DNA of 64,000 bases from Methylorubrum sp. B1-46 (GTDB lineage: Bacteria > Pseudomonadota > Alphaproteobacteria > Rhizobiales > Beijerinckiaceae). Both the position numbers and the translations under genes were made by a program. The stretch lies in assembly GCF_021117295.1 (NCBI RefSeq), contig NZ_CP088247.1, forward strand, positions 4,045,001-4,109,000, in the 5' to 3' direction. Under the pieces are notes generated by a model, which saw only the letters and a list, made by a program, of their open reading frames with translations, made no database searches and was not told the origin of the DNA. Below are positions 6,145 through 50,895 of the stretch, one piece after another. Position 1 is the first letter of the stretch. The number at the start of each line of letters is the position of its first letter.

Positions 6145-6183
6145 GCAGACACCGAAGCGCGAGGAGATCGCCAGGAGATCGCC

Positions 6184-6462: not shown

Positions 6463-6513
6463 GCACCGTCGCACGAGCCGGCCGGCCTGCGTTGTTTTGG
6501 CAAGCACAGCGTA

Positions 6514-6644
6514 CCTCATGCTGAGGCGCCGAGCTGAAAGCTCGGCCTCGAAGCACGCCTGAACGATCGCCCCGCGGCATCGGGTTGCCGGGAGAACCGT
6601 CGCGATGTGCTTCGAGGCTGCTGACGCAGCACCTCAGCATGAGG
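6514..6644. repeat. REP-like extragenic palindrome pair
   Basis: An inverted repeat with outer arms CCTCATGCTGAGG (6514-6526) and CCTCAGCATGAGG (6632-6644) and inner arms GCCTCGAAGCAC (~6545-6556) and GTGCTTCGAGGC (~6607-6618). This is the style of repeat found between genes in Rhizobiales/Methylobacterium. It separates the mll-type operon from the GNAT gene and may also stop transcription. Confidence 0.7.
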
Positions 6645-6717
6645 AGCATTCAGATTGCCTGAGCAAAACAAGGCAACATCTTCGACAAATTCTGAAATCA
6701 GCGGCACGAGGAACGAT

Positions 6718-7218: not shown

Positions 7219-7372
7219 ATCCGGTACGGATCGCCCGAGCGTCTTCGAGCGTCGAAGCCCCTGGATCCCAGGAACATTGCTGATTTCGCGAAGGTTTCGC
7301 CCGTCAGACTCCGGCACCGCTCCCAGACAATCGGCGCCTGGCTGTCGTATCCAGACCGGGAGATCCGATACC

Positions 7373-8062: not shown

Positions 8063-8072
8063 GCCTGAACCT

Positions 8073-8116
8073 GCGGCGCACCGTCCCCGATCGCGCTCTC
8101 GGGGATGATGCGCCGC
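8073..8116. terminator. Hairpin between convergent genes
   Basis: Interrupted inverted repeat, outer arms GCGGCGCA/TGCGCCGC and inner arms TCCCCGA/TCGGGGA, between the converging DUF4142 and cytochrome b561 genes. There is no T-run, so intrinsic termination is only a suggestion. Confidence 0.45.
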
Positions 8117-8148
8117 GACCAGGGCTCGTGTTCACGGCCAAACCGGCG

Positions 8149-8745
8149 TCACCCGCGCATCGTCCGCCGCGGATCCTGCTCCGGCAGCATCCGGTCGAGC
8201 ACGCCGTCGCGGCGGATCGCGACGTGCCACACGGTGCCGGCAATGTGCAGCCCCACCAGGACGTAGACGGCCCATTGCCCGGCGAGATGGACCGACTGGA
8301 AGAGGTTGCGCAGCGCCTCGTTCTTCTCGAAGCCGGGGATGGGGAAGAGATAGAAGAACTGCGTCGTGCTGCCGTTGAAGGCACTGAGCAGGAAGCCGCT
8401 CACCGGCATCAGCAGGAACACCGCGTAGAGCAGCCAGTGGCTGATCTTCGCGATGAGGGCGAGGCCTGCCGGCTCGCTCACCTAAGGCGGCGGCGGGTTG
8501 AAGGCGCGCCACAGGATGCGGACGACCACCAGCCCGAGAATCGTGAGCCCGACCGATTTGTGAAATTGGAACAGCACCGGCTTGGCCGCCGCCTCCTTGG
8601 CGAGGCTCGTGGCGACCCACGCCAGCGGCAGGACGGCGAGGACGAGAACCGAGGTCAACCAGTGCAGCGCCTGCGCCGTGCGGGTGTAGCGCGGGAAGGC
8701 AGGGACGGGCTTCGGAGCGACGCCGGGGGCGGCGGTTGACGTCAT
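8149..8745 (-). pseudogene. Cytochrome b561 family protein interrupted by an in-frame amber codon
   Basis: Read through, this is a 198-residue cytochrome b561 (di-haem membrane electron carrier) with four helices. The haem-ligand histidines are present: ALHWLTS and FHKSVG before the break, ISHWLLY and VGLHIAG after it. A TAG at 8482-8484 follows FNPPPP, a conserved loop in the family, and the frame resumes directly as VSEPAGLAL. A single C-to-T change (CAG to TAG) would explain it. As written, translation yields only an 87-residue half. Re-initiation at GTG 8481 is possible but unlikely to make a working protein. A sequencing error or amber suppression are alternatives. Confidence 0.8.
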
Positions 8746-8896
8746 GGGCCTGAATCTCCCGTCGATGCGGAGAATTCAGATAGGGCCCCTCCCGGCCGCG
8801 CCCATCACAGATTGCATCGAACAGTCAGAACCAGCACAGGCGTTTCATGCGGTCGTCGTACTGGCGGCGCGGCAACGAACGCTCCCTGCAAGCTCA

Positions 8897-9217
8897 TCAC
8901 GGCCCGAACGGCGATCGAGCGCGCGATCGCGGCGCGAAGAGCACCGACGCGTCTTTGCCCTCGGCTGCCAGGGTTTGAACCGTCTCCCAGTACTGTTTCA
9001 GCCACCGCCGGGCCTCGAGCACGCCGACGACGATTCCCATCGTCGCACCGATCACGGCGCCGATGACGATCTTCGACGAATCCCAATGCAGCAGATACTC
9101 ATCAGGGCCAGGTCCCGGCCGGATCATCGCGCCGATCCCCGAGGCCGACCCCACCAGTGCGAAGAAAGCAATCTTCTCCGCTACGATCGATGCAAATTTT
9201 CGATACTTGGACTGCAT
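8897..9217 (-). CDS. Small predicted membrane protein
   Basis: A 106-residue open frame with two likely membrane helices (AFFALVGSASGIGAMI and IVIGAVIGATMGIVVGV), charged ends and a basic C-terminus. The Gly-rich second helix resembles small Gly-zipper proteins. No family recognised. Real coding is supported by the hydrophobic periodicity, but the C-terminal 15 residues (RSRARSPFGP) look like chance sequence. Monocistronic. Confidence 0.5.
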   Translation of the reverse strand: MQSKYRKFASIVAEKIAFFALVGSASGIGAMIRPGPGPDEYLLHWDSSKIVIGAVIGATMGIVVGVLEARRWLKQYWETVQTLAAEGKDASVLFAPRSRARSPFGP

Positions 9218-9363
9218 GGGCGAGGCATCCCACCGAAGCGCTCGCTCTCAAGAAGCACAACCGCGGGATGAACCCGTTAAGATGGCATTTGTCGGTGGGG
9301 TTACACACAGCGCCGGGGAAGGCGGCACTCCAGCGCCGCCCCTCCCGCTCGAAATCCCGCCGC

Positions 9364-10158
9364 TCAGATCGCCGCGGCCGGGTCGCGATCCTCCGGGTCG
9401 CTCGCGGGCGGCGTCCGGTCGTTGCGGGGGCGGCGCTCCATCAGGGCGCGGCCGAGGGCGCGCAGGGGCGCGGTGAGGCGGCGGGCATCGTCGGCGCGCT
9501 CCATGAGGGTCTCGCCGCGGCGGATCTCGCGGTCGAGCTTGGCCATGGTGCGGGCGAGCGCCGGATCGTCGTCCTCCAGCCAGACCTCGACGGTGCGGGC
9601 GAAGGCGATCACGGTGCCCTGAAGCTTGAGCCGACCGAGCGGCCCTTCCGTGTCGATGCCGGCGGCGGCCAGCATGTAGCGGTGCGAGTTGAGGGCGACC
9701 CCGTTGAGCGCCAGCATGGACAGCACGTCGCCGCGCAGCGCGAAGGCGATGCGGCGTAGGGCCGGCTTGTAGGGCGTCATCGCGTCGAGCCGGCGCATCA
9801 GCACGTCGAACAGGCGCTCGCGGGCGGGCTCGTCGGCGAGGTCGGCGGTGTCGACTTCCAGAACCTTGCGGTCGATGATCCGCGACAGGCCGCCGAGCAC
9901 CGCCCCCTTCGAGGGGAAGAGGTCGCGCAACTCGGCAAGGCTCAGATCCGCCTCGCGGGCGATATCGCCGACCTCGATGTCGTTCCAGGGCTGCTCGGCG
10001 GCGAGCCGCATCAGCGCCTCGACCGCGGCCTCGCGCGGGTTGGGCTTGGGCAGATTGGACGAGGCGCCGGATTGCGACGAACCGGACTTTCCATGGGTCT
10101 CGGACTTGCCACCAGCCTCGGACTTGCCGCCGGTGTTGGACTCGGGGGCCGTCGCCAT
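9364..10158 (-). CDS. TetR-family transcriptional regulator
   Basis: A 264-residue TetR-type regulator. After a disordered Ser/Gly/Lys-rich N-terminus of ~38 residues comes the helix-turn-helix (REAAVEALMRLAAEQPW, then DIEVGDIAREADLS and LRDLFPSKGAVLGGL). The rest is an alpha-helical ligand domain like that of TetR proteins near COQ9-type proteins. ATG 10158 is chosen over the longer frame because upstream residues are basic low-complexity. It lies 70 bases after proC on the same strand. Confidence 0.78.
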   Translation of the reverse strand: MATAPESNTGGKSEAGGKSETHGKSGSSQSGASSNLPKPNPREAAVEALMRLAAEQPWNDIEVGDIAREADLSLAELRDLFPSKGAVLGGLSRIIDRKVLEVDTADLADEPARERLFDVLMRRLDAMTPYKPALRRIAFALRGDVLSMLALNGVALNSHRYMLAAAGIDTEGPLGRLKLQGTVIAFARTVEVWLEDDDPALARTMAKLDREIRRGETLMERADDARRLTAPLRALGRALMERRPRNDRTPPASDPEDRDPAAAI

Positions 10159-10228
10159 GATCCGTGCTCCGTGTTCGGTTCGACGTCTCATGTAGGAGCG
10201 AAGTCGCCGGGTTGAACCCGCCGCGGCG

Positions 10229-11059
10229 TCAGCCGGACAATTCGCCCGCCCGGCGCTTGGCCGCGGCGACCGCCTCTTGCATCAGGGCGGGGAGGGCGCC
10301 CTCGCGCATCAGCACGGCCAGCGCCGCCGCGGTGGTGCCGCCCGGCGAGGTGACGTCCCGGCGCAATTGCCCGGCCTCGCGTGGATCGGCGTCGAGCAGG
10401 GCGCCGGCGCCCGCGACGGTGGCACGGGCGAGCTGCGCCGACAGATCCGGCGGCAGCCCCGCCGCCACGCCGGCCTCGGCCAGCGCCTCCGCCAGCAGGA
10501 AGACGTAGGCCGGTCCCGAGCCCGAGACTGCGGTCACCGCATCGATCAGCGCCTCGTCGTCGAGCCATGCGACGAGGCCGGAACTGGCGAGCAGCGCGTT
10601 CGCTCCCGCCCTCGCCAGGTCCCCGACCTCGGAGCTGCCGACGGCGCCGGTCGCGCCCCGGCCGATGCTGGCGGGGAGGTTGGGCATGACGCGCACCACG
10701 GCGCGGGCCGAGGGCAGGCGGCGCTTCAGGTCGGCAATGGTCTTGCCCGCCAGGATCGAGACGACGAGGGTGTCGGGACCGATCCAGGCCGAGAGCGCCG
10801 GGGCGGCCTCGTCGAGGACCTGCGGCTTGATGCCGAGCACCAGGGCCCCGGCCGGGGCGGCGGCGGGCGGGTTGAGGCGCAGGCCCTGCTCGGCGCAGAG
10901 CACGGCGATCTCAGAGGAGGGCTGCGGATCGATCACCGTCACGGCGGCGGGGTCGAGGCCGCCCGCGAGCCAGCCCCGCAGCAGGGCCGCTCCCATCTTG
11001 CCGGCACCGGCCAGAACCAGGGGCGTGGGGAACGGGGGCGGGGCGTGGTCCTGCGTCAT
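10229..11059 (-). CDS. proC: Pyrroline-5-carboxylate reductase
   Basis: A 276-residue enzyme for the last step of proline synthesis, reduction of 1-pyrroline-5-carboxylate with NAD(P)H. Rossmann loop LVLAGAGKMGAALL at ~14-27, GIKPQ near 95, VRVMPNLPA near 140, and the family signature AVSGSGPAYVF plus DVTSPGGTT in the C-terminal dimerisation domain. ATG 11059 is used; the open frame to 11188 is the shadow of the next gene. It follows the YbjN gene by 22 bases. Confidence 0.95.
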   Translation of the reverse strand: MTQDHAPPPFPTPLVLAGAGKMGAALLRGWLAGGLDPAAVTVIDPQPSSEIAVLCAEQGLRLNPPAAAPAGALVLGIKPQVLDEAAPALSAWIGPDTLVVSILAGKTIADLKRRLPSARAVVRVMPNLPASIGRGATGAVGSSEVGDLARAGANALLASSGLVAWLDDEALIDAVTAVSGSGPAYVFLLAEALAEAGVAAGLPPDLSAQLARATVAGAGALLDADPREAGQLRRDVTSPGGTTAAALAVLMREGALPALMQEAVAAAKRRAGELSG

Positions 11060-11081
11060 CGGTTCTGATCCCGCGCGGCGC

Positions 11082-11588
11082 TCACGCCTCGCCTTCGGTC
11101 TCGAACAGCACCGCGTCGAGGGCCTCGCGGGCGCTCTTGCCGGCCCAGAGCACGAACTGGAACGCCTGATAGTAGCGCTCGCAGGCATCGGCGGCGGTCT
11201 TCATCATCATCGCGCACTGGCCTTGCGTCGGCGCGATGCCGTCGGTGAGCAGCAGCGAGTGACGGAACATCACGACACTGTCGGACGACCACAGGTCGAA
11301 ATGGCCGATCCAGAGCTGCTCGTTCACCAGCGCCACGAGGCGCAGCATCTCGGCCCGGCGCCGCTCCGGCACCTTGAGGTCGAAGGCGGCGGCCACGTGC
11401 AGCGACTCGACTTCCTCGATCCAGGTGAAGGCAACGTGGTATTCGGCCCAGCGCCCCGAAACGGAGACCGACATCTCGTCCGTCTCGATCCGATCGAAGA
11501 TCCAGTCCCGCAGCGAGGCGAGGCGCTCGACGACATCGAGCGGGTGCTCCGGCCGGTCGCTGTCTTCGATGAGGCTAAGCTGGGTCAT
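11082..11588 (-). CDS. YbjN domain-containing protein
   Basis: A 168-residue cytoplasmic protein of the YbjN family, which has a type III secretion chaperone-like alpha/beta fold. Diagnostic stretches are HPLDVVERLASLRDW, LVALVNEQLWIGHFDLW and FRHSLLL. In alphaproteobacteria it is commonly encoded before proC, as here, and probably transcribed with it. Biochemical role unknown. Confidence 0.85.
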   Translation of the reverse strand: MTQLSLIEDSDRPEHPLDVVERLASLRDWIFDRIETDEMSVSVSGRWAEYHVAFTWIEEVESLHVAAAFDLKVPERRRAEMLRLVALVNEQLWIGHFDLWSSDSVVMFRHSLLLTDGIAPTQGQCAMMMKTAADACERYYQAFQFVLWAGKSAREALDAVLFETEGEA

Positions 11589-11926
11589 GGCGATCCAAGT
11601 TGTCGACCCGGTCGATGCGCTCGATCGGGCCGGCGGTCAAAGCAGGGCCGTGACGGGAATCGAGGCGACGCCCGTCGATCTCCGTCCTGCGGAGGGGTTC
11701 AATCCAGATTTCACCGCCCCAGGGTTTGGTTCCACCTTTCCGCCGGGGCGAATCAACTTCGGATCGTTTATAGCCCGCGCCGCCCGCGGGCTTCAAAGCG
11801 TCGCCCCGGCATCAGCGGTGGGCAACGCGGCTATCCACCGATGCTTCCTGTGCAAAGAAATCCGGATTCCGCGTTTTCCCCCAAGGGTGAGTCTTTGCCG
11901 AGTCTCCGGCGAGTCGGCGCCGCCGC
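11589..11926. other. Intergenic stretch without a supported gene
   Basis: 338 bases between the YbjN gene start and the ubiK stop. It must hold the YbjN/proC promoter, but I see no convincing hexamers and no coding frame. Confidence 0.4.
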
Positions 11927-12208
11927 TCAGACCGATTCCGTGCTGCCGGCGCTCCCCGCCTCGGCGCCGAGGCGGGCCTCCAAGGCGCTGACGCGGGCGG
12001 CGAGCGCGTCGTTCTGGCTGCGCAGGGCCGCGACGAGGTCGCGCAGCACGTCCACCTCCTCGCGGGTGGCGACGTCCATGTCGCGGATCAGGCGCTCGAC
12101 CTGCCCCTTGAACATCGTCTCCGCCTCGCGGCGCACCCCTTGGGCCGCTCCGGCGGCATCGGTGAACAGGCGGGCGACATCGTCGAAAAGGCGGTTCGAG
12201 CCTTGCAT
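11927..12208 (-). CDS. ubiK: Ubiquinone-biosynthesis accessory factor UbiK/BMFP family
   Basis: A 93-residue protein of the UbiK (BMFP, YqiC-like) family: an amphipathic N-terminus (NRLFDDVARLFTDAAGAAQG), a middle helix, and a C-terminal coiled coil with leucine spacing (VLRDLVAALRSQNDALAARV). In other proteobacteria it helps the late hydroxylation steps of ubiquinone synthesis in a soluble complex. ATG 12208 is preceded by GGAGATCCCC. Stand-alone gene. Confidence 0.82.
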   Translation of the reverse strand: MQGSNRLFDDVARLFTDAAGAAQGVRREAETMFKGQVERLIRDMDVATREEVDVLRDLVAALRSQNDALAARVSALEARLGAEAGSAGSTESV

Positions 12209-12450
12209 GGGGATCTCCTCCCGCGCCCGGACCTGTTCGAGCACGTTCCCACGACATAAGAATCGGCGGCCGGCAGGGCAATCGAGGGGCGCTCACGAAA
12301 CGCTCCGGGCGCCGGCACCGGCGGGGAGCGGAAGTCCAGGCCGGATCGTTGCCGCAGGTGTCGGGCCAGGCAGCGGAAACGCGGGGTTACAATCTTGCGC
12401 CGCGGCCATACTTCCGGGCGGGGAGGGCGCAGGCGTAAGACTGTCCCGTC

Positions 12451-13173
12451 ATGACCACGAACCAGCCGACGCCCCACATCCTCGTCGTCGAGGACGACCG
12501 CGAGATCAGCGCGCTCGTCGCGCGCTACCTGCGCGCCAACGAGTGCCGGGTGAGTCTGGCGGGCGATGGGCGCGAGATGGACCGGGTGCTGGCCGATGCC
12601 CGGGTCGACCTCATCGTCCTCGACCTGATGCTGCCGGGCGAGGACGGCCTGAGCCTGTGCCGGCGCCTGCGGGCCGCGTCGCAGGTGCCGATCCTGATGC
12701 TCACGGCAAAGTCCGAGGAGATCGACCGGATCGTCGGATTGGAGATCGGCGCCGACGACTATCTCGGCAAGCCGTTCAACCCGCGCGAATTGCTGGCGCG
12801 CATCCGGGCGATCCTGCGGCGCAAGGGCGCCGAGCCGCAGGACGGGGACGGCGCGCGCCGCTTCCAGTTCGCGGGCTGGACCCTCGATGTGGGCCTGCGG
12901 CAGGTGCTGAGCCCTGAGGGCGCGCGCATCGCCATGACGGGGGCCGAGTTCGACCTGCTCCACGCCCTCTGCCTGCGGCCCGGCCGGGTGCTCTCCCGCG
13001 ACCAGCTCCTCGATCTGACCCAAGGGCGGGCGGCGGGTCCGTTCGAGCGCAGCATCGACGTGCTGGTCTCGCGCATCCGCCAGAAAATCGAGCGCGACCC
13101 GCGCAACCCCGAGATCATCCGCACGATCCGCTCGGGCGGCTACCTGTTCGCGCCGGAGATTGCCCGGACATGA
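12451..13173 (+). CDS. OmpR-family response regulator
   Basis: A 240-residue two-domain regulator. The receiver has the acidic pair Asp15/Asp16, phospho-acceptor Asp58 (VLDLMLPGEDG), Thr85 and Lys107 (LGKPF). The C-terminal winged helix has TGAEFDLLHALCLRPGRVLS and the final IRTIRSGGYLF. It is translationally coupled to the histidine kinase downstream (ATGA overlap at 13170). The pair resembles OmpR/EnvZ-type systems; the signal cannot be told. Confidence 0.92.
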   Translation: MTTNQPTPHILVVEDDREISALVARYLRANECRVSLAGDGREMDRVLADARVDLIVLDLMLPGEDGLSLCRRLRAASQVPILMLTAKSEEIDRIVGLEIGADDYLGKPFNPRELLARIRAILRRKGAEPQDGDGARRFQFAGWTLDVGLRQVLSPEGARIAMTGAEFDLLHALCLRPGRVLSRDQLLDLTQGRAAGPFERSIDVLVSRIRQKIERDPRNPEIIRTIRSGGYLFAPEIART

Positions 13174-23427: not shown

Positions 23428-23503
<76 letters not shown>

Positions 23504-23797: not shown

Positions 23798-24577
23798 CTA
23801 CAAGGCCGCGCCGAGCCCGATTCGGAGGCGGTACTGCCACGTCAGCGAGAGGCAGACGCCTTCGAGGCTGGCCCAGATGTGGGCCGCATCCACGCCGAGC
23901 TGGAACAGGTTGCGCTGGAAGACCGCGCGGGTGTCCCGCGGGATCTCGAAGCTGTTCTCCGCCATGCCGGGCGGCGTCCACGCCGAGGCCGGATCGGGGT
24001 GGGCCGAGAACAGGCCCTTCTGGCTCGCGATGCGGGGCGCCAGGGCGGAGGGCAGCAGGAAGCCGACCTCGGCGATCTCGAAGGGGCCGGGACCCCGCTC
24101 GGGGTCGATCATGGAACTGCCGCCGAGCGGATGCGCGTACACGATGGCGTCCTCGTTCGCGGGCTGGCTGGCAACGGCGAAGAAGCAGGCGATGAGCGGA
24201 TTGGTCGTCCAGTCGAGCAAGCGGGTCGGGAGACCGTAATGCTGACCCAGCGCCAGCCAGTCCCAATCCGTCGCCCCGGGCATCGCGACGTGCAGCCTGG
24301 CCTCGCGCTTGAAATCCTGGAACAGTTGCCGTTCGTGGCGCGGGTCGAACTCGGCGCCCCGGCCGGCGCTGGGCTTGCACTCGAAGGCCTTCGACGCGCA
24401 GCCGCGGAACACCCATCGTGAGTTCATGCGTGCCGCCAGGAAGGCGTGGAACGCCTGCCAGCGCTCCTGCGCCGGCCCGCCCTCTCCATCGCCGGACCCC
24501 GATGGTCCGGACGGGGACGGCGTGCGATCAGGCGCCCGCAGGCGCGCCGGAGCGGGTGGAAACCGTGGCGGCCTCAA
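23798..24577 (-). CDS. FRG-domain protein, last gene of the QueC/PfkB-NDT operon
   Basis: A ~259-residue protein with the FRG domain (named for its Phe-Arg-Gly motif): SRWVFRGCASKAFECKPS, an E-x-x-x-F-K acidic helix, then the highly conserved ALGQHYGLPTRLLDWTTNP and ACFFAVA. FRG proteins are often found in phage-defence and mobile loci and have been suggested as effectors; no reaction is established to my knowledge. Start uncertain: TTG 24577 has GGGAGGG six bases upstream, while GTG 24619 would overlap the preceding stop by 20 bases. The first ~50 residues are Pro-rich. Nothing coding is seen between its stop and the tRNA. Confidence 0.78.
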   Translation of the reverse strand: MRPPRFPPAPARLRAPDRTPSPSGPSGSGDGEGGPAQERWQAFHAFLAARMNSRWVFRGCASKAFECKPSAGRGAEFDPRHERQLFQDFKREARLHVAMPGATDWDWLALGQHYGLPTRLLDWTTNPLIACFFAVASQPANEDAIVYAHPLGGSSMIDPERGPGPFEIAEVGFLLPSALAPRIASQKGLFSAHPDPASAWTPPGMAENSFEIPRDTRAVFQRNLFQLGVDAAHIWASLEGVCLSLTWQYRLRIGLGAAL

Positions 24578-24599
24578 CGGGTGCCCTCCCGGCCGCCGA

Positions 24600-25787
24600 T
24601 CACCGCAGGCATGCCACACACGTCCGGTAGAGCGCCGTGGCGAGATCGTGCGTCACCTCGCAGCCGCTTCCCGAGAACATCGTCAAATCCCCGCCGGAGG
24701 CCGTCTCGGCGAGCAGCACCACCGGCATGCCGTTGGCTTGCGCGTAGCCGACGTGAAGGTTCGTCCCGAGGTCGGCGACGTCGCCCAGGGCTAGGAGGGC
24801 TGAATGGGGCACGCGAGGCCGGGGCGGCCAATTCGCTCGCGTGGGTGAGCGGGGGCCGTCGTCCGCAAACGCCGTCTCCGTCCTGAACCCGAGCGCGTCG
24901 AGGTAAGCGGCCGCCTCGTCGAAGAGCCATCTTTGGGCCATGGTCCGGCGCGGTCCGGACAGGTAGACCCGGCAACCCGACGCGGGGCGCCCGGGCACCG
25001 CCTCCATCCCTTCGAGCTCGTCCGGCGGAGGCAGCGGCAACCGAGCCCCGTCGTTGAACCACGCCACGCAGCGGGACGCGAGGTCGGCCGCCCCCACGGC
25101 GTCGAAGCCACGCTCGCCCCAATAATGCGCGAAGGCCGCGCAGAAGACGTCGCCGGCCCCGATCCTGAACCAGCGGCGGGCGGCGTACGCCGGCACCGGG
25201 ATGCCGGGGGCGTCGCCCCGGTACACCGTGGCACCGCCGAATGCGTGGCGCGACACGACGAGCGTGGCGCCCTCGCGGGCCATGACGCCGGTCGCGGCGT
25301 CGCGCGGGTCCGGGAGCGGCCCGAGCCGGACCAAGTCGGCATCCTGCACCACGTAGGCGAGTTGCTCCGTCGCCCGCGAGCCGGAACGCACGAAGGAGGA
25401 CGCGGGGTCGGCGGAGCGCGGGTCGTAGACCGCCCGGCCGGCCGTGAGCCGGGCCGTGCCCTCCAGCATGCCGAACCCGAGCACGACGTCGCCGGTGACG
25501 GCCAGGTCGGCGTAGCGCCGGCCGGCCTCGGGAACCCAGCTCTTGCGAAGGGGATGCCAATACTCGAATTCGAGCCGCTCCCCGATGGCGACGATGTCCG
25601 TCTCGACCTCGAAGGCGGCCATGGTCGCCCGGAGGTCGCCGGCCGACTCGGCGTAAGCATACGTGCTCAGGCGGGTGCCCGGGGACAGCGCGCTCACCGC
25701 CATGGCGGCGCGCGCGCCCGAACCGAACAGGCCGGCCCAGGCGGGGAACGCGCAGCTCTCGAAATATGTGCCGCCGACGACGTTCAC
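24600..25787 (-). CDS. PfkB-like kinase / nucleoside 2-deoxyribosyltransferase-like fusion, copy 2
   Basis: A 395-residue fusion. Residues 1-~265 resemble a PfkB/ribokinase domain: GGTYFE start, GSGARAAMAV, GGATVYRG and the anion-hole/catalytic block IGAGDVFCAAFAHYW. From ~274 (VYLSGPRRTMAQRWLFDEA) a Rossmann-like nucleoside 2-deoxyribosyltransferase (NDT) domain follows. Its motif reads LGTNLHVGYAQA, with His345 where the nucleophilic Glu of NDTs is expected, so this NDT domain is probably not a transferase. GTG 25787 shares bases with the stop of the preceding small gene (GTGA). Paralogue of the gene at 26782-27966. The long open frame upstream of 25787 is shadow. Confidence 0.8.
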   Translation of the reverse strand: MNVVGGTYFESCAFPAWAGLFGSGARAAMAVSALSPGTRLSTYAYAESAGDLRATMAAFEVETDIVAIGERLEFEYWHPLRKSWVPEAGRRYADLAVTGDVVLGFGMLEGTARLTAGRAVYDPRSADPASSFVRSGSRATEQLAYVVQDADLVRLGPLPDPRDAATGVMAREGATLVVSRHAFGGATVYRGDAPGIPVPAYAARRWFRIGAGDVFCAAFAHYWGERGFDAVGAADLASRCVAWFNDGARLPLPPPDELEGMEAVPGRPASGCRVYLSGPRRTMAQRWLFDEAAAYLDALGFRTETAFADDGPRSPTRANWPPRPRVPHSALLALGDVADLGTNLHVGYAQANGMPVVLLAETASGGDLTMFSGSGCEVTHDLATALYRTCVACLR

Positions 25788-26137
25788 GCCTCGGCCCTCG
25801 TGACCGTAACGGTGCAGCGCGTCGCGCCGACATCCTCGATGAGGGCCTCGAACCGCACCCCCTGGTCGAGGCAGCCGAGCAGGCTCACGAGGCCGCGGAA
25901 CGCGGCGAGGGCGCCGACGGTCGCCCCGTCGGCGGTGCGGCAGACTGCGGTGCTGGCGCCCGCGCCGGCCACGAGGTCCACCTCCAACACGTCTCCGGCC
26001 TGCAGGCCGCGCGTGGCGTCGCGGCGGACACCGATCAGGTCGACCGTGAAGGTCAGGTCGCACTCGTCGGACCCTGTCCGGACCTGTCCCATGCCGTACG
26101 GCATGCGGCGGCGTTTGGGTGGGAGCCCTCCGCCCAT
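25784..26137 (-). CDS. Small beta-rich protein, copy 2 (HIRAN-like, tentative)
   Basis: A 117-residue protein paralogous to the one at 27963-28364. Both share the order C-D-L-(T/S)-(F/Y)-x-V-x-L-x-G-V-R, a G-D-V-L-(E/D)-V strand, AVCRT, then (V/T)-G-(A/T)-L-A and a closing L-L-G-C-L. The alternation of strands with a G-x-L-A turn recalls HIRAN-type DNA-end-binding barrels, but I cannot confirm that. ATG 26137 has GGAGGG upstream; its stop overlaps the start of the following PfkB-NDT gene. Confidence 0.7.
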   Translation of the reverse strand: MGGGLPPKRRRMPYGMGQVRTGSDECDLTFTVDLIGVRRDATRGLQAGDVLEVDLVAGAGASTAVCRTADGATVGALAAFRGLVSLLGCLDQGVRFEALIEDVGATRCTVTVTRAEA

Positions 26138-26140
26138 TCG

Positions 26141-26785
26141 TCAACCCTCCGCCCGCGCCGCGTCCGGTCGGTCCGGGGCCGCGCGGGATGCCTTCACGTC
26201 GGACCGCAGGCCGAACGACCGCAAGGTCTCGCGATGCTTCTCGCATCCGCGGCACTGCCCGCAGGCATATTCCATGACGTGACAGGAGAATGTCGCACCG
26301 AGCGCCGAGGCGGGAAGGCCGGACGCCGCGAGAAGGGCCGGCCCGCTCAGGTGCCGTGCGGGCGCCACGACGCGCACCCCACCCTCCTGGAGCCGCATCA
26401 GTCGGTCGAGCGTCCGCAGGAATGGGGCGCGTCCGTCGGCGTGGACATCGGTCGCCACCGTTCCGATGAGGATCTCCGACAGGCCTTCCGCGACGAAGCG
26501 CATGCCTGCGAGGGTGACCAGGATCTGGTTGCGGTAGGGCCACCATTCGGGGGCACGCGCGAGCGCGGCGGGCTCCCCGCCGGCCAGGGGCCCGAGGCCA
26601 AGCCCGGACAGGTCGACCTGAAGCGTTTCGAGCCGCAGCCCGAACTCGGCCGCGATGGACGTCGCAGCCGCCCTTTCGCCCGCCGCCGGCCGCTGGCCGT
26701 AATCGACGAACAGGCAGGCGTCCGGCCTCTGCCACCAAGCGAGGGCGGTCGAATCGAGGCCGCCGGAAAACAGCAGAACCCTCAT
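26141..26785 (-). CDS. QueC-like PP-loop ATPase (7-cyano-7-deazaguanine synthase family)
   Basis: A 214-residue QueC-type enzyme. PP-loop SGGLDS at 7-12 binds ATP; FVDYGQ follows; the C-terminal zinc site has four Cys (FSCHVMEYACGQCRGCEKH). QueC converts 7-carboxy-7-deazaguanine to preQ0. No QueD, QueE or QueF is nearby, so this is not a queuosine operon. QueC-like proteins serve in the Qat and type IV CBASS anti-phage systems, where deazaguanine-protein conjugation has been reported. ATG 26785 overlaps the TGA of the upstream PfkB-NDT gene, so it is translationally coupled to it. All catalytic and zinc residues are intact. Confidence 0.88.
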   Translation of the reverse strand: MRVLLFSGGLDSTALAWWQRPDACLFVDYGQRPAAGERAAATSIAAEFGLRLETLQVDLSGLGLGPLAGGEPAALARAPEWWPYRNQILVTLAGMRFVAEGLSEILIGTVATDVHADGRAPFLRTLDRLMRLQEGGVRVVAPARHLSGPALLAASGLPASALGATFSCHVMEYACGQCRGCEKHRETLRSFGLRSDVKASRAAPDRPDAARAEG

Positions 26786-27966
26786 CGCAGCGAGGCCCAC
26801 ACGACCCGATAGAGGGCGGAGGCGAAATCGTCGACGACCTCGCAGCCGGTGCCGGCCAGCATGGTCAGGTGATGCTCGTCGAGGCGTTCGGCCAGCACGA
26901 CCACTGGGATGCCGCGCGCCCGCGCATGTCCAACCTCGAAGATCGAGCCCGGGTCCGCCCCGTCGAGCAGGGCGAGCACGGCTTGGCAGCCGTCGAGCCC
27001 CGCGAGGTCGGCGGTGGCGAGGGCGACGGCGCCGCCCCCCGTGCCCACGTCGTGCAACGGCGAGAAGACAGACGCGCCGAGGGCGTGCAGCCGGTCCCGT
27101 GCCTCCTCGACGAGCCAGCGTTGGGCGATGTGGAAGAACGGGGCCGCGAGGTAGACGCGGCCGGGCTCCCCGCCCACGGGTGCGAGCGCCTGGTCGGCGA
27201 GGTCGGCGGCCGCGGGCAGCGGCAGCGAGCGCGTGTCGACGAAATGGTGGACCGCGCGCGACGCCAGGTCGGCCGCCGCCGCGGCGTCGAGGCCGCGCTC
27301 GCCCCAGTGATGCGCGAAGGCGGCGCTGAAGACGTCGCCCGAGCCGATCTTGAACACGCGGGCGGATCGATAAGCGGGCACCGCGACGGGGTCGCGACCA
27401 GGCCGGTGGACGGTCGCGCCCGAGCAGCCACGCTTGACCACGACCACGTCGGCCGCGTGCAGGGCGAGAACGGCCTCGCCTGCGGCCGGCCCCTCCTCGC
27501 CCGTCGCCCCCTCCGCCTCCCCCTCGTTCAGGACTACGGCCAGGGCCTCGGCCCGGGACCCGTTGGCGCGGAACGGGACAACGTCGTCGCCCTGCGGGTC
27601 GTGGACCGCCCGCTCCGCGGACACGACCGCGTCGCCCTCCACGAAGCCGAAACGCAGCACGACCCGCCCGTCGACCGAGAGGGCCGGGTGTCGCGTCGGC
27701 ACGCCGGGCCGCAGCGTGGCCGGCGACAGGGCATGGAAGTAGCCGAAGCTGATCTCCTCGGCGATGGGCATTACCGTCGCCGTCACCCCGCAGGCGTGCA
27801 TCGAGCTCTCGACGTCGCGGGCCCAGCCTGCGAAGGCATAGGTGTGAAGGCTGCTGCCCGGCGAGAGCTGCCCGACCGCCGCGGCGGCACGGCCGCCCGA
27901 ACCGAACAGCCGGCGCCAGCGCGGGATCTCGCAGATCTCCAGGTAGGACCCTCCGGCGACGATCAA
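26782..27966 (-). CDS. PfkB-like kinase / nucleoside 2-deoxyribosyltransferase fusion, copy 1
   Basis: A 394-residue fusion. The PfkB/ribokinase-like half (1-~265) shows GGSYLE, FGSGGRAAAAVGQL, GCSGATVHR and the catalytic IGSGDVFSAAFAHHW. The NDT half (~271-394) starts VYLAAPFFHIAQRW and retains DGADPGSIFEVGHARA, including Asp and the nucleophilic Glu344 expected of transferases. Together they suggest phosphorylation of a (deoxy)ribose moiety plus base-sugar cleavage or exchange, substrate unknown. TTG 27966 overlaps the stop of the preceding gene (TTGA), and the stop overlaps the QueC start. Confidence 0.82.
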   Translation of the reverse strand: MIVAGGSYLEICEIPRWRRLFGSGGRAAAAVGQLSPGSSLHTYAFAGWARDVESSMHACGVTATVMPIAEEISFGYFHALSPATLRPGVPTRHPALSVDGRVVLRFGFVEGDAVVSAERAVHDPQGDDVVPFRANGSRAEALAVVLNEGEAEGATGEEGPAAGEAVLALHAADVVVVKRGCSGATVHRPGRDPVAVPAYRSARVFKIGSGDVFSAAFAHHWGERGLDAAAAADLASRAVHHFVDTRSLPLPAAADLADQALAPVGGEPGRVYLAAPFFHIAQRWLVEEARDRLHALGASVFSPLHDVGTGGGAVALATADLAGLDGCQAVLALLDGADPGSIFEVGHARARGIPVVVLAERLDEHHLTMLAGTGCEVVDDFASALYRVVWASLR

Positions 27967-28364
27967 CCCAGCACCGGTGCGATGGCGACGCGACAGAGGA
28001 GGCGGCCGACCTGCGTCACGGTCGCCGCGTAGCGGTGGTGGGTGCGCAGGCAACCGAGAAGTTCGTCGAGGCCTTCGACGTTCGCCAGCGTGCCGACCAC
28101 CTGCCCGGCGGGGCGGGTACGGCACACGGCGGTCTCGAACGCACCCGCCCTGTGCAGCGCGACGTCCAGGACGTCGCCGATGCGCACGACGGCGACGACG
28201 TCGGCCCGGACCCCGGTCAGTTCGACGTCGTAACTGAGGTCGCAGGGCGAGCCCGTCGGCGCATTCCCGCCCTCCGATCCGGCGGTCGAGCTCGGCGCGC
28301 CCGGCCCTGCACCGGCCGGCGCGACCAGGCGACGGCCCGAACTTTTCTTGCTGCCCCCCGACAT
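27963..28364 (-). CDS. Small beta-rich protein, copy 1 (HIRAN-like, tentative)
   Basis: A 133-residue protein with a disordered basic, Gly/Ser-rich N-terminus (~45 residues, begins MSGGSKKSSGRR) and a C-terminal ~85-residue domain shared with the gene at 25784-26137 (DLSYDVELTGVRADVV, RIGDVLDVAL, GQVVGTLANVEG). ATG 28364 has AAGCGGG upstream. The pairing of this gene with a PfkB-NDT fusion occurs twice, so the products probably act together. No family assigned with confidence. Confidence 0.7.
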   Translation of the reverse strand: MSGGSKKSSGRRLVAPAGAGPGAPSSTAGSEGGNAPTGSPCDLSYDVELTGVRADVVAVVRIGDVLDVALHRAGAFETAVCRTRPAGQVVGTLANVEGLDELLGCLRTHHRYAATVTQVGRLLCRVAIAPVLG

Positions 28365-28425
28365 CCCGCTTGCCCGGCCACTGGTGAAGGAGACCTGATT
28401 TCTTATCGGCCTCCGCCGTCGCCGG

Positions 28426-29160
28426 TCAAACCGGTCCCCGGCCGATGTTGCGCATCGCCCGCCACATGACGGCATCGACCAGCGACGGCTTCGCGTCCAG
28501 GGCCACGCAGAACTGCAGGAAGCGCCGTTCGAGCGCCTCGTAGTCCCGCGGGAGGCGGATCGGCCGCTCGAACAGGCCGATCAGGAGGCCTGCACGGATG
28601 ATGTGAATGTCGAGGATGGCGACCTCGTCCGAGCCCAGCCAGTTCCGGGTGACCCACGAGGCGGTCTTCGGACCGACGCCGGGCAGGCGCATCAGGTGGC
28701 GTCGGAAGGCCAGGGCGTCGCTCGACGGCGGAGGATCGGTCTCGATGAGCGTCAGCGCGTCGGCGAGCCTGCCCGCCCTCTGCTTCGGGAAGCGGTAGCG
28801 CACCGACCTTTCGCCGATGCGGACCGGCCTGCGCAGGAGGGCCTCGATCTCATCGGCCCCGGGACGACGGCCCGGCTCGAAGATCCCATCCGCGGCGAGC
28901 GCGCGATGGACCGCGTGGTTGACCTCGGCCGTGATGCCGTAGCCCCCGAGCAGACAGAAGCCGATCTCGTGGGCCAGGCTGACCTCCCGCCCCACGAACC
29001 CGTCGACCGGCTCGCTGGCCCGACCGACCATGAAAGCCCAGAACGCGGCACTCGGCACCCATTCCGGGCGCCCCCACCGCACCCCCGGCATCAATTCGGC
29101 CTCCGGGTCCGCGGGAATCGTCGCGACCGACCGCGTCCTCCCGGACGTCTGAGCCTGCAT
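28426..29160 (-). CDS. HhH-GPD DNA glycosylase, 8-oxoguanine (OGG)-like
   Basis: A 244-residue glycosylase. The helix-hairpin-helix is LMRLPGVGPKTASWV with the lyase Lys165, and the GPD-loop acid is Asp184 (VAILDIHIIRAG). Both catalytic residues of a bifunctional glycosylase/AP lyase are present. It resembles the compact OGG-type enzymes that accompany QueC-like and TGT-like proteins in type IV CBASS (Cap11). ATG 29160 faces the divergent XRE gene across 45 bases, making this the first gene of the seven-gene operon. It may excise a modified or deazapurine-type base; that is inference. Confidence 0.83.
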   Translation of the reverse strand: MQAQTSGRTRSVATIPADPEAELMPGVRWGRPEWVPSAAFWAFMVGRASEPVDGFVGREVSLAHEIGFCLLGGYGITAEVNHAVHRALAADGIFEPGRRPGADEIEALLRRPVRIGERSVRYRFPKQRAGRLADALTLIETDPPPSSDALAFRRHLMRLPGVGPKTASWVTRNWLGSDEVAILDIHIIRAGLLIGLFERPIRLPRDYEALERRFLQFCVALDAKPSLVDAVMWRAMRNIGRGPV

Positions 29161-29205
29161 CCTGCGCGCCTTGATTATTCGTTATCATTCGATTTTATTG
29201 ACTTC
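29161..29205. promoter_or_regulatory. Divergent promoter of the QueC/OGG operon and XRE gene
   Basis: A 45-base AT-rich gap between divergent starts. It contains TTGATT and TTATCATT-like elements and a repeated ATTCG (twice within 15 bases). It is the only non-coding space for both promoters, so the XRE protein very likely binds here. No clear Shine-Dalgarno precedes the XRE ATG, so its mRNA may have almost no leader. Confidence 0.55.
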
Positions 29206-29538
29206 ATGAGCGGAAGCAAGCGGGCGGCTGACGGCGGGGATGCGCATGCGCTGGCGATTGCCCTCGGTCGCGTGCGTCGAGAGCGCGGGCTTACGCAGGC
29301 TGCCCTTGCCAAGATCCTCGGCGCGAGCCAGGCGACCATATCGAAGCTATTGGCAGGGCAACATAAGCCTAGACCCGCGCTGCATCTCGCCGCGGTTCGG
29401 TTCATCGGTGCGCACCCGTCGGAGGATCCCGCGGCTTTCTCGAACCTGACGCTGCGCGTGGAGGCGGCTGCACGGCAGTCGGTCGCGTTCCGAGCGCTCC
29501 TGGAGGCCGCGGTGGCGCTCTTGAATGAAAACGAATAG
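29206..29538 (+). CDS. XRE-family regulator divergent from the QueC/OGG operon
   Basis: A 110-residue protein with a Cro/CI-type helix-turn-helix at ~18-65 (LGRVRRERGLTQAALAKIL, QATISKLLAGQHKPRP) and a helical tail. ATG 29206 directly follows the shared AT-rich promoter; the open frame upstream is the shadow of the glycosylase gene. Typical control gene for a defence or mobile operon, probably a repressor. The ~375 bases downstream show no supported gene. Confidence 0.85.
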   Translation: MSGSKRAADGGDAHALAIALGRVRRERGLTQAALAKILGASQATISKLLAGQHKPRPALHLAAVRFIGAHPSEDPAAFSNLTLRVEAAARQSVAFRALLEAAVALLNENE

Positions 29539-29915
29539 CCGCGCCGGGCGGTGCGGCAAGGTCGGGAACCGTCGTTCTCGGCGCCGGATGGAACGTGCCC
29601 CGGGACCAGGCCGAGGCGGCGCGCCCGGGCGGCGGGACCCGGCGCCTCGATGACGAGCGCGGGTGCCGCCCCCCCCGGGCCTGGTCGCTCAAACGAATGC
29701 ATCCACGGCGGGTAGGCCCCGGCATGATCGCGGCGCCCGGGCGCCGGCGGCGCTCGGCCCCTTCGGCGTGGGATGACAATGGTCCGGCGTGCGGATACGG
29801 CGTCGGCCGAGGTGTTTGCCGACTTCGAACGGATCGGCTCGCCCTCGGCCTGCCCGACGCGACGTCGCCCGGGCTACGCCATCGCCTTCCCATCGGCAGG
29901 AGCATTTGTCTCGGG
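29539..29915. other. Gap without a supported gene
   Basis: 377 bases after the XRE gene. Open frames are all GC-driven and basic or Pro-rich. AGGAG at 29899 probably belongs to the next gene. Confidence 0.4.
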
Positions 29916-30650
29916 GTGCCCCACGCCTTTCGCATGTTCAAGGCCATGACGGATCTCGGCTTCGCCCAGGGCGAGGCGCTCGCCGTCGGCGGATTGATGG
30001 AGATTTCCCGGCATCCCGATACCCGCTTCGACGGCGAGGCTTGCCTCGACCGGCTGTGCGAGGGAGGCTTCGCCGAAGAGGCCGCGGAGGCGGTGGCCAG
30101 CGCGTTGCGCCACTGCTTCCTGTCGGAGAAGGCCACCGCGCAGTACGAGCGGACCAAGCTGAAGACGGCGCTGGTTCGCGGCGGCATCGCCGCCGCGAAG
30201 GCGGACGCGTTCCTGACGACGCTGGAAGGTTCGGTCGTCACGCGCCGCACGGCCGAGGTCAGGCGGCCGGTTCCGCACGCTCCGAGCCCCGGCCGGGTCG
30301 TGATGTGCGATTTCACCTACCTCGTGAAGCCGGAGATGCAGAAGGAACGGCGGGCGATCGTCGTGTCCTCGCGCTCGGCCGGCGCCGCCGGGCGCTGCAC
30401 GGTGGTGCCGGTGAGCAAGAGCCCGCCCCGGGAGAACAACACCCATCATTTCCGGTTCGAGCCGGGCACGTATCCCTTCTTCCACCAGACCGACCCGGTT
30501 TGGGCCGTCTGCGACCACATCTATACCGTTTCCCTGGTCCGGCTGTGGCAGGTCAACGTGAACCGCCGCCCGGCGCTGCCGTCCATCTCGCCCGCCGAGC
30601 TCGCCGGCATCCGAGCGCTCCTCGGAACCGTGCTGGGCCTCGATCATTGA
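29916..30650 (+). CDS. PemK/MazF-like toxin domain with a helical N-terminal extension
   Basis: About 244 residues. The C-terminal ~115 residues have the MazF/PemK barrel pattern: GRVVMCDFTYL, KERRAIVVSSRS, CTVVPVSKSPP, then VWAVCDHIYTVSLVRLWQV. Such proteins are sequence-specific endoribonucleases in toxin-antitoxin systems. The N-terminal ~110 residues are helical, resembling a small recognition or antitoxin-like domain (ALAVGGLMEISRHPDTRF). No separate antitoxin gene is adjacent. Start uncertain: GTG 29916 (AGGAG 12 bases upstream) or ATG 29934. The longer frame upstream is not protein-like. Confidence 0.68.
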   Translation: MPHAFRMFKAMTDLGFAQGEALAVGGLMEISRHPDTRFDGEACLDRLCEGGFAEEAAEAVASALRHCFLSEKATAQYERTKLKTALVRGGIAAAKADAFLTTLEGSVVTRRTAEVRRPVPHAPSPGRVVMCDFTYLVKPEMQKERRAIVVSSRSAGAAGRCTVVPVSKSPPRENNTHHFRFEPGTYPFFHQTDPVWAVCDHIYTVSLVRLWQVNVNRRPALPSISPAELAGIRALLGTVLGLDH

Positions 30651-41218: not shown

Positions 41219-43807
41219 CTAGGCCGCGTCCCTCTTCCGCCCGGCAGGCGACTTGCGTCGGCGCGCTCGATGGACGGCCGGGGCCACGCCGCCGTTCCTG
41301 GCGTAGCGCGAGCGCCTGGGTGACGGGCCCTGCCACTGCGCCGAACCCCGGAGCATATTGGCCAAGCGCCCGACATCCAAGTCATCGAGAAGCTCAGGGA
41401 AGCGCAGCGCCCATAGCTCCAGCAACCGGTCCCAACTTCCGCTGCGGACCAGCCGGCGCACGGAATTCGTGAGGTTCCGTTCGTCACCGAACCGCTCCGG
41501 CATCCTGCGCCATGAGAGGCCGGTCCGCAGCGCCAGGATCACCGCCTCCAGAAGCAGCCGGCCGGGAATGCCCGGGGTGCCCTTGAACGAGATCTCGATG
41601 GACGAATGCAACAGCGGCTTCGAGGCCAGCCATTGCTCGTCGGTGAGCGCATCCTGGCCATTCAGGGCGTGGAAGCGTGCGGCCGGCCCCCTGCGCTTGC
41701 GCCAATCATCACCGCCAACCTTCCAGCGCGCCCGCGCGGCCTCGACCGGACCGAGGTCCAGTCCGGCCACGAAGGAAGGGTCCGCCTCGCGAAGGAGGTC
41801 AATCAGGATCTGGTCCCCTGCGGCATAGACGAACCGCGAGAGTGCACGCCGCATCTCCAGCGCGTCGCCGAACGCCGCCGACAGCAAAGGCAGGCCCGTC
41901 CGGAGCCGGAGCAGGAGGGCGTCGACCAGAGCCCGCGTCGGGATGTGGCGCGAGTCATTCCTGTGGCCCGTGACGTCCGGGAGGTGCTTGGCGACGAGGG
42001 CCCAACGCGCGTCGTCGATCCGATAACCTCCGGTTGCCATAAGCCGCTGGGCGTCTTCGCGAAGGCGGACATGGCGTCCCATCGGCTGCTCGACATCGAC
42101 ATGGATCACGTCCAAGCTAACACCGGGCGAGCCGCAGCTCCCGTCCTCCTGTAGGAACGCCAAGAAGTCCAGGTGGATGGCCAGGCCCAAGGTCCCCGCC
42201 GGCCGGCCATCCCGTATGACCACCACCCGCTGGACGAGGCGGGCAAGGGCGGCGGAGACCTTCGCCTCCGCCTCCGTCAAGGCCCTGAATGGCACCCGCT
42301 CGATAAGGTGATCCAACGTGGCGGAAAGTGTTCGAAGCCTCTCACCGGCTTCGTCCACCTCGGGCAGTTCGGCGAGGCCCGCCGAACGGGCCTGAAGGTC
42401 TGCGAGCTCCCCCGTCAGCCGGCTCCTCTCCTCGGACAACAGGTCGGATGGATAGGTCGATTCAAGCTCCTTGACGAGCGCCCGGCGAAGCTGTTCGCGG
42501 GTGACCGCAATCTTACGCGCAACATCCGCACGGGCGGCGCGGCGGGCGGCGGAGGCCTCACGTAGCGAGCGGTCGACGGCAGCCGCGAAATCCTCCTCGC
42601 CGACGAAGGACCGCAGCTTGCCGCAAACGGCGGTGAGGACGGCGCGCTCCACGGTCTCGTGCATAACGGAGTGACGCCTCGCCGGGCAGCAGCCCCCGTC
42701 CGACCAGACGTTGCAGGTTAGCTGTCGACCACCCAAGGTGAACCGCTGGCCTTCGACCCCGGCGCAGTCGCACGTCGCCTTTCCGGCCAAGAAGTGGCTG
42801 TGCTCGAACTTCTGCTTCCCCCGGGGGCGTCGCTTCTCGTTGACAGCGAAAAACAGATCGTCTGGCACAATTCGAAGGTGATCGAAGTAGTTGCGCGTCA
42901 TCTCGCTCGGATGCCGACGCTGGACGGTGACCTTCCCCGATTTGCGGTCGAACGTATTCAAGGTAAATGGATAGTACCATCTACCCGTATAGGCCAACTG
43001 GCCCAAAACGTTCGCAACGGTCGATTTCGTCCATCTGCAATCCTTCGTCGGTCCTGCAACCCCGCGTTCCTTCATGATCCGGCCGATGCTTCGGTAGGAA
43101 ATTCCCGCGGCTGCCATTTCAAAGATTGAAAATATGGTCTTCTCTTCCTCGGGGTGACGCACGAGGAAGCCCCTTTCTTCGCCGTACCGATATCCGAAGA
43201 ACGCACCGGAATGGGCGCCGCCCTGGGCAGCGTGCTGGAACCTGCCCATGCCCATGATCAGGGTGCGACGGTCCCGATCCGCCTCGGCCTTGAGTGCCGC
43301 TTCGATGACCTCCTTCTTGTTCAGTGCCTTGAAGTCGCCGGCGCTATGAAATTCCACGCCAAGCTCATTCAATTCCTCGCATACTTCGACCGCATCGTAA
43401 GTTTCGCGGGACCACCGGTCAAAGTCCTCAACCATGATGACTTTTATCTTGCCAGACCGACAGTCTTCGAGCAAACGCTGCAGGCTTTCACGATCACGCA
43501 TTGATCGGGCACTTCGAGCAGGGTCGTCATACAGCACGTAAATCGCGTAACCAAGCTTCCTCATGTAAGCGGTTACAACCTTGACCTGACGCTCGATGCT
43601 CATCTCCTTCTGCTTATTAGACGAGTAGCGAGCGTAGAGGCCCACGGGCACAAGCTTGTCCGGTGGGCCGAAGCCGTCACGGCGTTCGACATCCAGGTTC
43701 CGTCGAAGGGCCAACCGGTCCAGAGGGCACAATGCCGTCGTATCGACCACCTGCCGCAGATCCACGGCGCCAGGCATCAGGTCGGTCGTCCGTTCACCGT
43801 GGGCCAT
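41219..43807 (-). CDS. Large serine recombinase with two transposase-like (DUF4096-type) C-terminal domains
   Basis: An 862-residue protein. Resolvase catalytic domain from ~55 with Ser62 (GLYARYSSNKQKEMSIERQ) and the Arg-rich FDRWSRETYDAVE; a recombinase domain (~230-330); a zinc ribbon with CDCAG...CPARRH near 360-395; a coiled coil (~425-500). Unusually, it continues with two repeats of the HTH-like domain found at the N-terminus of IS4/IS5 transposases: ARWALVAKHLP with LLRLRTGLPLLSAAFG (~595-670), and DEQWLASKPLL with LALRTGLSWRRMPERFG (~718-800). Serine integrases of this size drive integration or excision of mobile elements. ATG 43807 has GGAGCGG upstream. Confidence 0.85.
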   Translation of the reverse strand: MAHGERTTDLMPGAVDLRQVVDTTALCPLDRLALRRNLDVERRDGFGPPDKLVPVGLYARYSSNKQKEMSIERQVKVVTAYMRKLGYAIYVLYDDPARSARSMRDRESLQRLLEDCRSGKIKVIMVEDFDRWSRETYDAVEVCEELNELGVEFHSAGDFKALNKKEVIEAALKAEADRDRRTLIMGMGRFQHAAQGGAHSGAFFGYRYGEERGFLVRHPEEEKTIFSIFEMAAAGISYRSIGRIMKERGVAGPTKDCRWTKSTVANVLGQLAYTGRWYYPFTLNTFDRKSGKVTVQRRHPSEMTRNYFDHLRIVPDDLFFAVNEKRRPRGKQKFEHSHFLAGKATCDCAGVEGQRFTLGGRQLTCNVWSDGGCCPARRHSVMHETVERAVLTAVCGKLRSFVGEEDFAAAVDRSLREASAARRAARADVARKIAVTREQLRRALVKELESTYPSDLLSEERSRLTGELADLQARSAGLAELPEVDEAGERLRTLSATLDHLIERVPFRALTEAEAKVSAALARLVQRVVVIRDGRPAGTLGLAIHLDFLAFLQEDGSCGSPGVSLDVIHVDVEQPMGRHVRLREDAQRLMATGGYRIDDARWALVAKHLPDVTGHRNDSRHIPTRALVDALLLRLRTGLPLLSAAFGDALEMRRALSRFVYAAGDQILIDLLREADPSFVAGLDLGPVEAARARWKVGGDDWRKRRGPAARFHALNGQDALTDEQWLASKPLLHSSIEISFKGTPGIPGRLLLEAVILALRTGLSWRRMPERFGDERNLTNSVRRLVRSGSWDRLLELWALRFPELLDDLDVGRLANMLRGSAQWQGPSPRRSRYARNGGVAPAVHRARRRKSPAGRKRDAA

Positions 43808-50883: not shown

Positions 50884-50895
50884 GGCCTCTCCACT

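Follow-up and report, generated by a model that had tools for sequence, protein, structure and literature searches.

We analyzed a window of 64,000 nucleotides from Methylorubrum sp. B1-46 (contig NZ_CP088247.1, positions 4,045,001 to 4,109,000), in which seven minus-strand genes form an operon that we regard as a candidate anti-phage system. The gene order is OGG-like, B1, PfkB-NDT1, QueC-like, B2, PfkB-NDT2 and FRG (NDT, nucleoside deoxyribosyltransferase), and a gene for an XRE-family regulator (29206-29538, +; HTH_31, 8.6e-11) is divergent. The operon begins with an OGG-like HhH glycosylase/lyase (28426-29160, −; Ogg-HhH PF22175, 4.9e-10), followed by B1 (27963-28364, −; start inferred), a small protein with an MSGGS tail that we propose as the QueC substrate. 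The PfkB-NDT1 fusion (26782-27966, −; Nuc_deoxyrib_tr PF05014, 8.4e-15; PfkB PF00294, 5.7e-6) precedes a QueC-like ATP-dependent ligase (26141-26785, −; PF06508, 5.8e-19), placed by alignment in the Cluster 4 type (CHx5CxxCxGCxK). The second small protein, B2, starts with MGGG and was detected with the B profile (25784-26137, −); PfkB-NDT2 (24600-25787, −) is 45% identical to NDT1, and the FRG protein, the proposed effector, comes last (23798-24619, −; start uncertain; PF08867, 1e-23; PADLOC PDC-S15, 4.5e-63). When B1 and B2 were compared with family profile libraries, no match passed the cut-off (best E, 0.5 for B1 and 0.11 for B2), and NDT2 was matched by no Pfam family and by an NCBIfam kinase family only weakly (4.4e-4). 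Stop and start codons overlap at three junctions (TTGA at B1/NDT1, ATGA at NDT1/QueC and GTGA at B2/NDT2), QueC and B2 are separated by 3 bases, and 45 bases lie between the XRE and OGG starts. The original prediction, made from the sequence alone, had described this layout, including the nearby tRNA gene, and its coordinates were confirmed; its family calls were also right, as profile searches returned OGG-like, PfkB-NDT, QueC-like, FRG and HTH proteins. Both of the PfkB-NDT fusions it had named are present, but the second has a degenerate NDT domain that has lost catalytic residues.

A contig search anchored on PfkB-NDT yielded 247 encoding stretches, of which the best 80 were kept; these represent 79 distinct loci, several being near-identical Methylobacterium copies, and span Proteobacteria to haloarchaea. 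B was found in 79/79 loci, QueC in 77/79, OGG in 74/79 and FRG in 18/79. Both QueC misses, and two of the five OGG misses, fall at contig ends. The core consists of four genes, OGG-B-(PfkB-NDT)-QueC, and B2-NDT2-FRG is an accessory part, since only a minority of the loci have it. A lack of co-occurrence elsewhere had been named beforehand as grounds for abandoning the original prediction; the core recurs in all these loci, which marks the grouping as more than chance. OGG lies downstream in convergent orientation in many loci of Pseudomonas, Burkholderiales and Myxococcota. A search of viral contigs anchored on QueC gave 12 relatives; among the seven close ones, B and NDT accompany six and OGG four, and the seventh starts at a contig edge. 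That duplicated kinase-NDT fusions stand in for the CD-NTase and TGT parts of a related system, as had been suggested, was not supported: a single PfkB-NDT belongs to the core, and the second copy is without catalytic residues of its NDT domain.

The N-terminus of B sets this protein apart from those encoded beside it. Starts were picked from the Shine-Dalgarno score and the presence of ATG, without regard to glycine, and 116 B open reading frames (ORFs) gave 76 distinct N-termini; four had no start in range. Glycine occupies position 3 in 68/76, and 66/76 begin with M-[SGAT]-G ahead of a Gly-rich tail. The same start occurred in 0/68 OGG, 1/65 QueC and 4/82 NDT proteins and in 31/992 other long ORFs, controls that were scored as B was over somewhat different search ranges, some of the 992 surely being non-genes. 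Among 199 database relatives of B, the best 120, taken with source-annotated starts, showed M-[SGAT]-G in 116/120 and MSG in 112/120, a check that is not bias-free, as the query profile included the tail; the corresponding NDT control gave M-[SGAT]-G in 1/109 of the proteins beginning with M. The annotated start of B is MSGSGGG in E. coli KMi029 and MMSGSGGG in LR-33. Three of the haloarchaeal B proteins (L095:8916-10004; L074, L097 and L103) start with MGGG and one with MCGGG; the L095 protein also carries a long acidic tail and what look by eye like two B domains. According to the accessible parts of two papers (PMC13279940; PMC11996544), Gao and colleagues recognise substrates of the Cap9/QatC type by an N-terminus that is unstructured and carries an essential glycine motif. 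In B, the terminal glycine motif is the M-[SGAT]-G start, and disorder of the N-terminus was judged from its Gly-rich composition. This conserved start and tail, which liken B to the substrates of the QueC-family ligases Cap9 and QatC, are a new finding of our analysis and had not been noted in the original prediction. They also bear on the proposal that the system makes, attaches or removes a modified (deaza)purine nucleoside: the M-x-G tail, conserved in both kinds of small protein, points to a base being attached to a protein N-terminus rather than to a free nucleoside. A HIRAN-like fold, an idea formed by eye for B, was dropped; Pfam searches over 50 members gave only scattered weak matches (best E, 0.0066, in one member), there was no PDB sequence match, and no signal was seen against the ORFs of four HIRAN loci, itself a weak test.

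The residues of the OGG-like protein that we take to be catalytic, Lys165 and Asp184, are invariant (25/25 aligned), and NDT1 keeps the presumed catalytic residues of both its domains, kinase Asp211 and NDT Glu344. NDT2 keeps the kinase Asp and has His in place of the NDT Glu. In a set of 98 distinct PfkB-NDT proteins, all (98/98) have the kinase Asp and 86/98 the NDT Glu; the 12 proteins without this Glu are second copies or belong to the TIR-TGT variant described below, and other NDT residues are lost in five further second copies and in the L090 protein. NDT2 is probably an NDT pseudoenzyme. In an alignment of 33 QueC sequences, SGGxDS, RN, Asp117 and Phe122 are kept. The QueC family profile matched Cap9 (9nto) at 1.5e-20, and the PADLOC QueC match scored 2.6e-15. 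The profile alignment places YYDC of Cap9 over H-x-D-G of QueC, so that the Asp that reads the base is kept; the roles of this Asp and of the stacking Tyr in Cap9-type QueC are those given in the accessible text of PMC13279940.

In Rhizobium/Agrobacterium plasmids (L090, L100 and L101) the B profile matches nothing. The loci of this variant (L100:10001-15824, L101, L090, L132 and L142) carry QueC, OGG and a PfkB-NDT that has lost NDT residues, together with a TIR-TGT fusion (TIR_2, 8e-12; TGT, 1.6e-9; PADLOC TGT, 9e-21) and a ThsB-like TIR (ThsB_TIR, 5e-23; PADLOC ThsB, 1.9e-15) that starts with MGGGGGG or MGGGSSG. The glycine-tailed TIR was found on 13 plasmids, all of which belong to the 37 with PfkB-NDT, and 115 of the best 120 of its 2,348 relatives, retrieved with a query that included the tail, have an MGG start. 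Where B is missing, another partner carries the glycine tail, and a degenerate NDT accompanies the gained TGT. Because the two changes go together, NDT and TGT/Cap10 may do similar jobs. We regard the TIR-TGT variant as a separate but related system, one that is apparently undescribed.

The operon is patchy in distribution and mobile. PfkB-NDT was detected in 7/398 Pseudomonadota genomes at E 1e-40 (own genome counted), and a blastn search with the Citrobacter copy matched 22/5,426 E. coli genomes in 23 places, all chromosomal, 18 of them with at least 80% coverage. In E. coli, copies turn up in at least three locations: beside ssb1 in an integrase island, close to dsdC in a prophage-like region, and in an island at selC (tRNA-Sec). 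Of the 37 plasmids with PfkB-NDT, 19 are conjugative, 4 mobilizable and 14 non-mobilizable, and no PfkB-NDT was found in 50,697 phage records. Within its own genus, a QueC-like protein occurs in 5/37 genomes (again with the own genome counted); four of the five have B and NDT, and the fifth has an orphan QueC. A second QueC match (G153) was taken as canonical, the flanking ORFs resembling QueD and QueE by eye.

In the window, the operon is on a tRNA-associated island at a tRNA-Ala(cgc) gene (23428-23503, +; tRNA gene call), which marks the attachment side. About 15 kb (window 23.0-38.0 kb) are 97-98% identical to M. hispanicum, M. gregans and M. suomiense, and the aligned stretch that follows toward the tRNA falls to 84, 85 and 88%, respectively. 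The contrast is weak in M. aminovorans (98.5 vs. 95-97%), and identity to M. rhodesianum stays at 96% all along. In three other relatives, homology to the window stops at 23503, the last base of the tRNA gene, and in a fourth at 23573, weak or short stretches elsewhere aside. Proteins identical to NDT1 are encoded in named Methylobacterium and Methylorubrum contigs. The same island carries a serine recombinase ORF (41219-43807, −; PF00239, 3.4e-21; PF07508, 5.1e-19) with an IS5-type transposase stretch (DUF4096) at its end. The idea that the 3′ end of the tRNA gene recurs as a direct repeat at the far edge was dropped, since no second copy was found elsewhere in the window; the far edge was not found. 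Two further observations concern this region: an ORF just past the XRE gene (29595-30650, +) has a PemK/MazF-like C-terminal part (3.3e-9), and a PolB-type exonuclease ORF (49867-52977, −) lies beside an AAA/peptidase M41 (FtsH-like) ORF. The host genome encodes TGT, a canonical QueC and an adjacent QueD; QueE was not found, one ORF adjoining QueC/QueD having no family match and no search aimed at QueE having been made.

We viewed the neighbourhoods of the operon in 17 plasmid and 6 E. coli regions. Several large clusters of ORFs resemble antisense shadows of core genes and were set aside. Attached or adjacent genes encode nitroreductase-like, Dam, dGTPase, Mrr-type restriction endonuclease, TIR and DUF4231 proteins, and toxin-antitoxin genes lie near some copies. 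Within 3 kb of the core, models for these genes matched nitroreductase-like proteins in 42 of the 79 loci, Dam in 13, dGTPase in 13, Mrr in 1, and TIR and TGT in none. Gabija adjoins the operon in E. coli KMi029 (GajA, 1.5e-256; GajB, 3.3e-151; PADLOC), and E. coli 1585m1 has the same island with different genes at the Gabija position. GajA- and GajB-like counts over the loci (5/79 and 7/79) come from broad nuclease/helicase models and are not called Gabija; the PADLOC scan was of L125 only. A ThsB protein (2.2e-163) is encoded near a P. aeruginosa plasmid copy. In Moraxella, a dGTPase gene overlaps QueC, and in E. coli H5 the operon (L164, about 5788-9970) lies directly upstream of genes for a dGTPase and a 276-residue protein, operon and pair together spanning 5788-12554; the 276-residue protein, whose accession occurs also in L127, had no match in PADLOC. 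The Clover preprint (PMC12265719), in its accessible part, reports tests of an E. coli H5 pair made up of a dNTPase and an NTase. As both spans measure 2,200 bases, the H5 dGTPase pair and the Clover operon tested there are very probably one and the same. The dGTPase, our initial idea for an effector of the present operon, was dropped on account of this match to Clover, though it may still have that role in Moraxella. A separate observation is that Multiubiquitin and ThiF-family (E1-E2, 8.6e-13) genes lie shortly upstream of the system in a Synechocystis plasmid (L099, 6471-11804).

We propose, with a probability of roughly 0.55, that this is a mobile, modular and probably anti-phage operon, representing a third family of immune systems based on conjugation by QueC, beside those of the Cap9 and QatC kinds. 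This proposal follows from the recurrence of the core in 79 loci, the tail of B, the profile match to Cap9, the patchy, mobile and defence-type setting, and the TIR variant; we also count in its favour the TGT, QueC and QueD of the host. The sequence itself shows the parts and how well they are conserved, the variable attached genes and the tail of B, and it is from these that we infer the chemistry. The QueC-like ligase would use ATP to join 7-deazaguanine carboxylate (CDG), supplied by the queuosine pathway of the host, to the amine freed at the N-terminus of B, by analogy with Cap9 acting on its CD-NTase. The NDT domain may bind the attached base or add a 2-deoxyribosyl group to it, in place of Cap10/TGT, and the PfkB domain could phosphorylate the product. 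The OGG-like enzyme would act on an N-glycosidic bond of this kind, either as a sensor or as an eraser. Depending on its state, tagged B may then release a swappable effector, which is FRG in the window operon and a TIR protein in one variant; B2 would act as a second B, and its partner NDT2 as a non-catalytic reader, linking the core to FRG. A more specific and speculative version, which we consider doubtful, is that the operon builds a protein-linked deoxynucleotide on B: QueC would add 7-deazaguanine, NDT a 2-deoxyribose from nucleosides freed by infection and PfkB a phosphate, with OGG cleaving the product, so that an on-protein signal senses deoxynucleotide turnover and is read by FRG/TIR.

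Several observations weigh against this proposal. QueC has His in place of the stacking Tyr; loss of Met would leave most B proteins with an exposed Ser instead of Gly; and the check on B relatives carries the bias noted above. In 16/79 loci we found none of the modelled attached genes, nor FRG. An orphan Cluster-4-like QueC (L112:8870-9472, G033) has no B, NDT or OGG within 19 kb and adjoins a nitroreductase-like gene. The order of the NDT, PfkB and OGG steps is conjectural. The original idea of a defence system is supported in part, in that the operon is patchy and mobile and, in viewed copies, lies near Gabija, ThsB, restriction endonuclease and dGTPase genes; its support is contextual, and the neighbour context is of the defence type as judged from the viewed copies without a baseline of random regions.

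PfkB and NDT families act on nucleosides, and it is conceivable, if unlikely, that the operon serves purine or deoxynucleoside salvage, with PfkB-NDT and the QueC-like enzyme recycling a modified purine. This would leave the conserved tail of B and the OGG-like gene unexplained, and fits poorly with rare accessory genes (22/5,426 E. coli and 7/398 Pseudomonadota genomes) that have plasmid and island homes and TIR, FRG, restriction endonuclease, Gabija and dGTPase neighbours. We consider equally unlikely a role in DNA modification or restriction, for which the Dpd systems, which place 7-deazaguanines in DNA, are the comparison: QueC and NDT would supply a modified deoxynucleotide, OGG would excise it from DNA, and Dam or the restriction endonuclease would cooperate. 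A DNA glycosylase, 2-deoxyribosyl chemistry, Dam in 13/79 loci and an Mrr-type restriction endonuclease after QueC are in keeping with such a role, yet Dam and the endonuclease occur in a minority of loci, no DpdA-like gene was found among the scanned operon proteins, and the tail of B again has no explanation. The plasmid and island homes, the divergent XRE gene and the toxin-antitoxin genes near some copies recall a toxin-antitoxin module, or one for plasmid addiction, in which FRG would be the toxin; this is very unlikely, as FRG is present in just 18/79 loci and five or more enzymes exceed the needs of addiction. Salvage is also the role stated for QueC Cluster 4 in the accessible part of a 2026 paper, which gives CHx5CxxCxGCxK as the cluster motif and finds PfkB-PF05014 in about 89% of neighbourhoods (PMC13329287). 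The pairing of QueC with PfkB/NDT is thus already in print, and the context of the operon argues against the salvage reading.

The operon shares with Cluster 4 the CHx5CxxCxGCxK motif and the PfkB-PF05014 neighbour; it has YGQ(x)5E where YGQ(x)6E is printed, which may reflect a different way of counting, and the accessible part of the Cluster 4 account makes no mention of OGG, FRG or B (PMC13329287). A literature search, with most subscription papers outside its reach, gave no paper that describes B or assigns the gene set to defence, and neither is found in the accessible part of the DefensePredictor paper (PMC13092281). FRG belongs to the ADP-ribosyltransferase superfamily and has been put forward as an NADase effector, according to the accessible text of PMC9503650. 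The TIR variant resembles Thoeris in its ThsB-like TIR, but this TIR is glycine-tailed and grouped with QueC, OGG, TIR-TGT and PfkB-NDT. With type IV CBASS (cyclic oligonucleotide-based antiphage signaling system), of which an OGG-like protein is also part, the operon shares a QueC-like ligase that matches the Cap9 profile and lies beside a partner with a glycine N-terminus. Here, however, the partner is the small protein B, and PfkB-NDT and FRG are added; as had been predicted, no CD-NTase, and no Cap10/TGT-like protein, was found among the scanned proteins of the window operon, TGT occurring only in the TIR variant. The qatABCD system likewise pairs a QueC-family enzyme with a partner that has an unstructured glycine N-terminus (PMC13279940, accessible part), whereas no QatA ATPase or QatD TatD-like nuclease family was found among the scanned operon proteins, and the operon QueC is without the extensions of QatC and keeps Asp where QatC has Thr. 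With this analysis, the published purine-salvage guess becomes a testable defence hypothesis with a likely protein substrate and acceptor end, and the E. coli copies offer operons that can be cloned into laboratory strains. If our proposal is correct, N-terminal tagging driven by QueC would be a general immune strategy, common to type IV CBASS, Qat, the system described here and its TIR variant.

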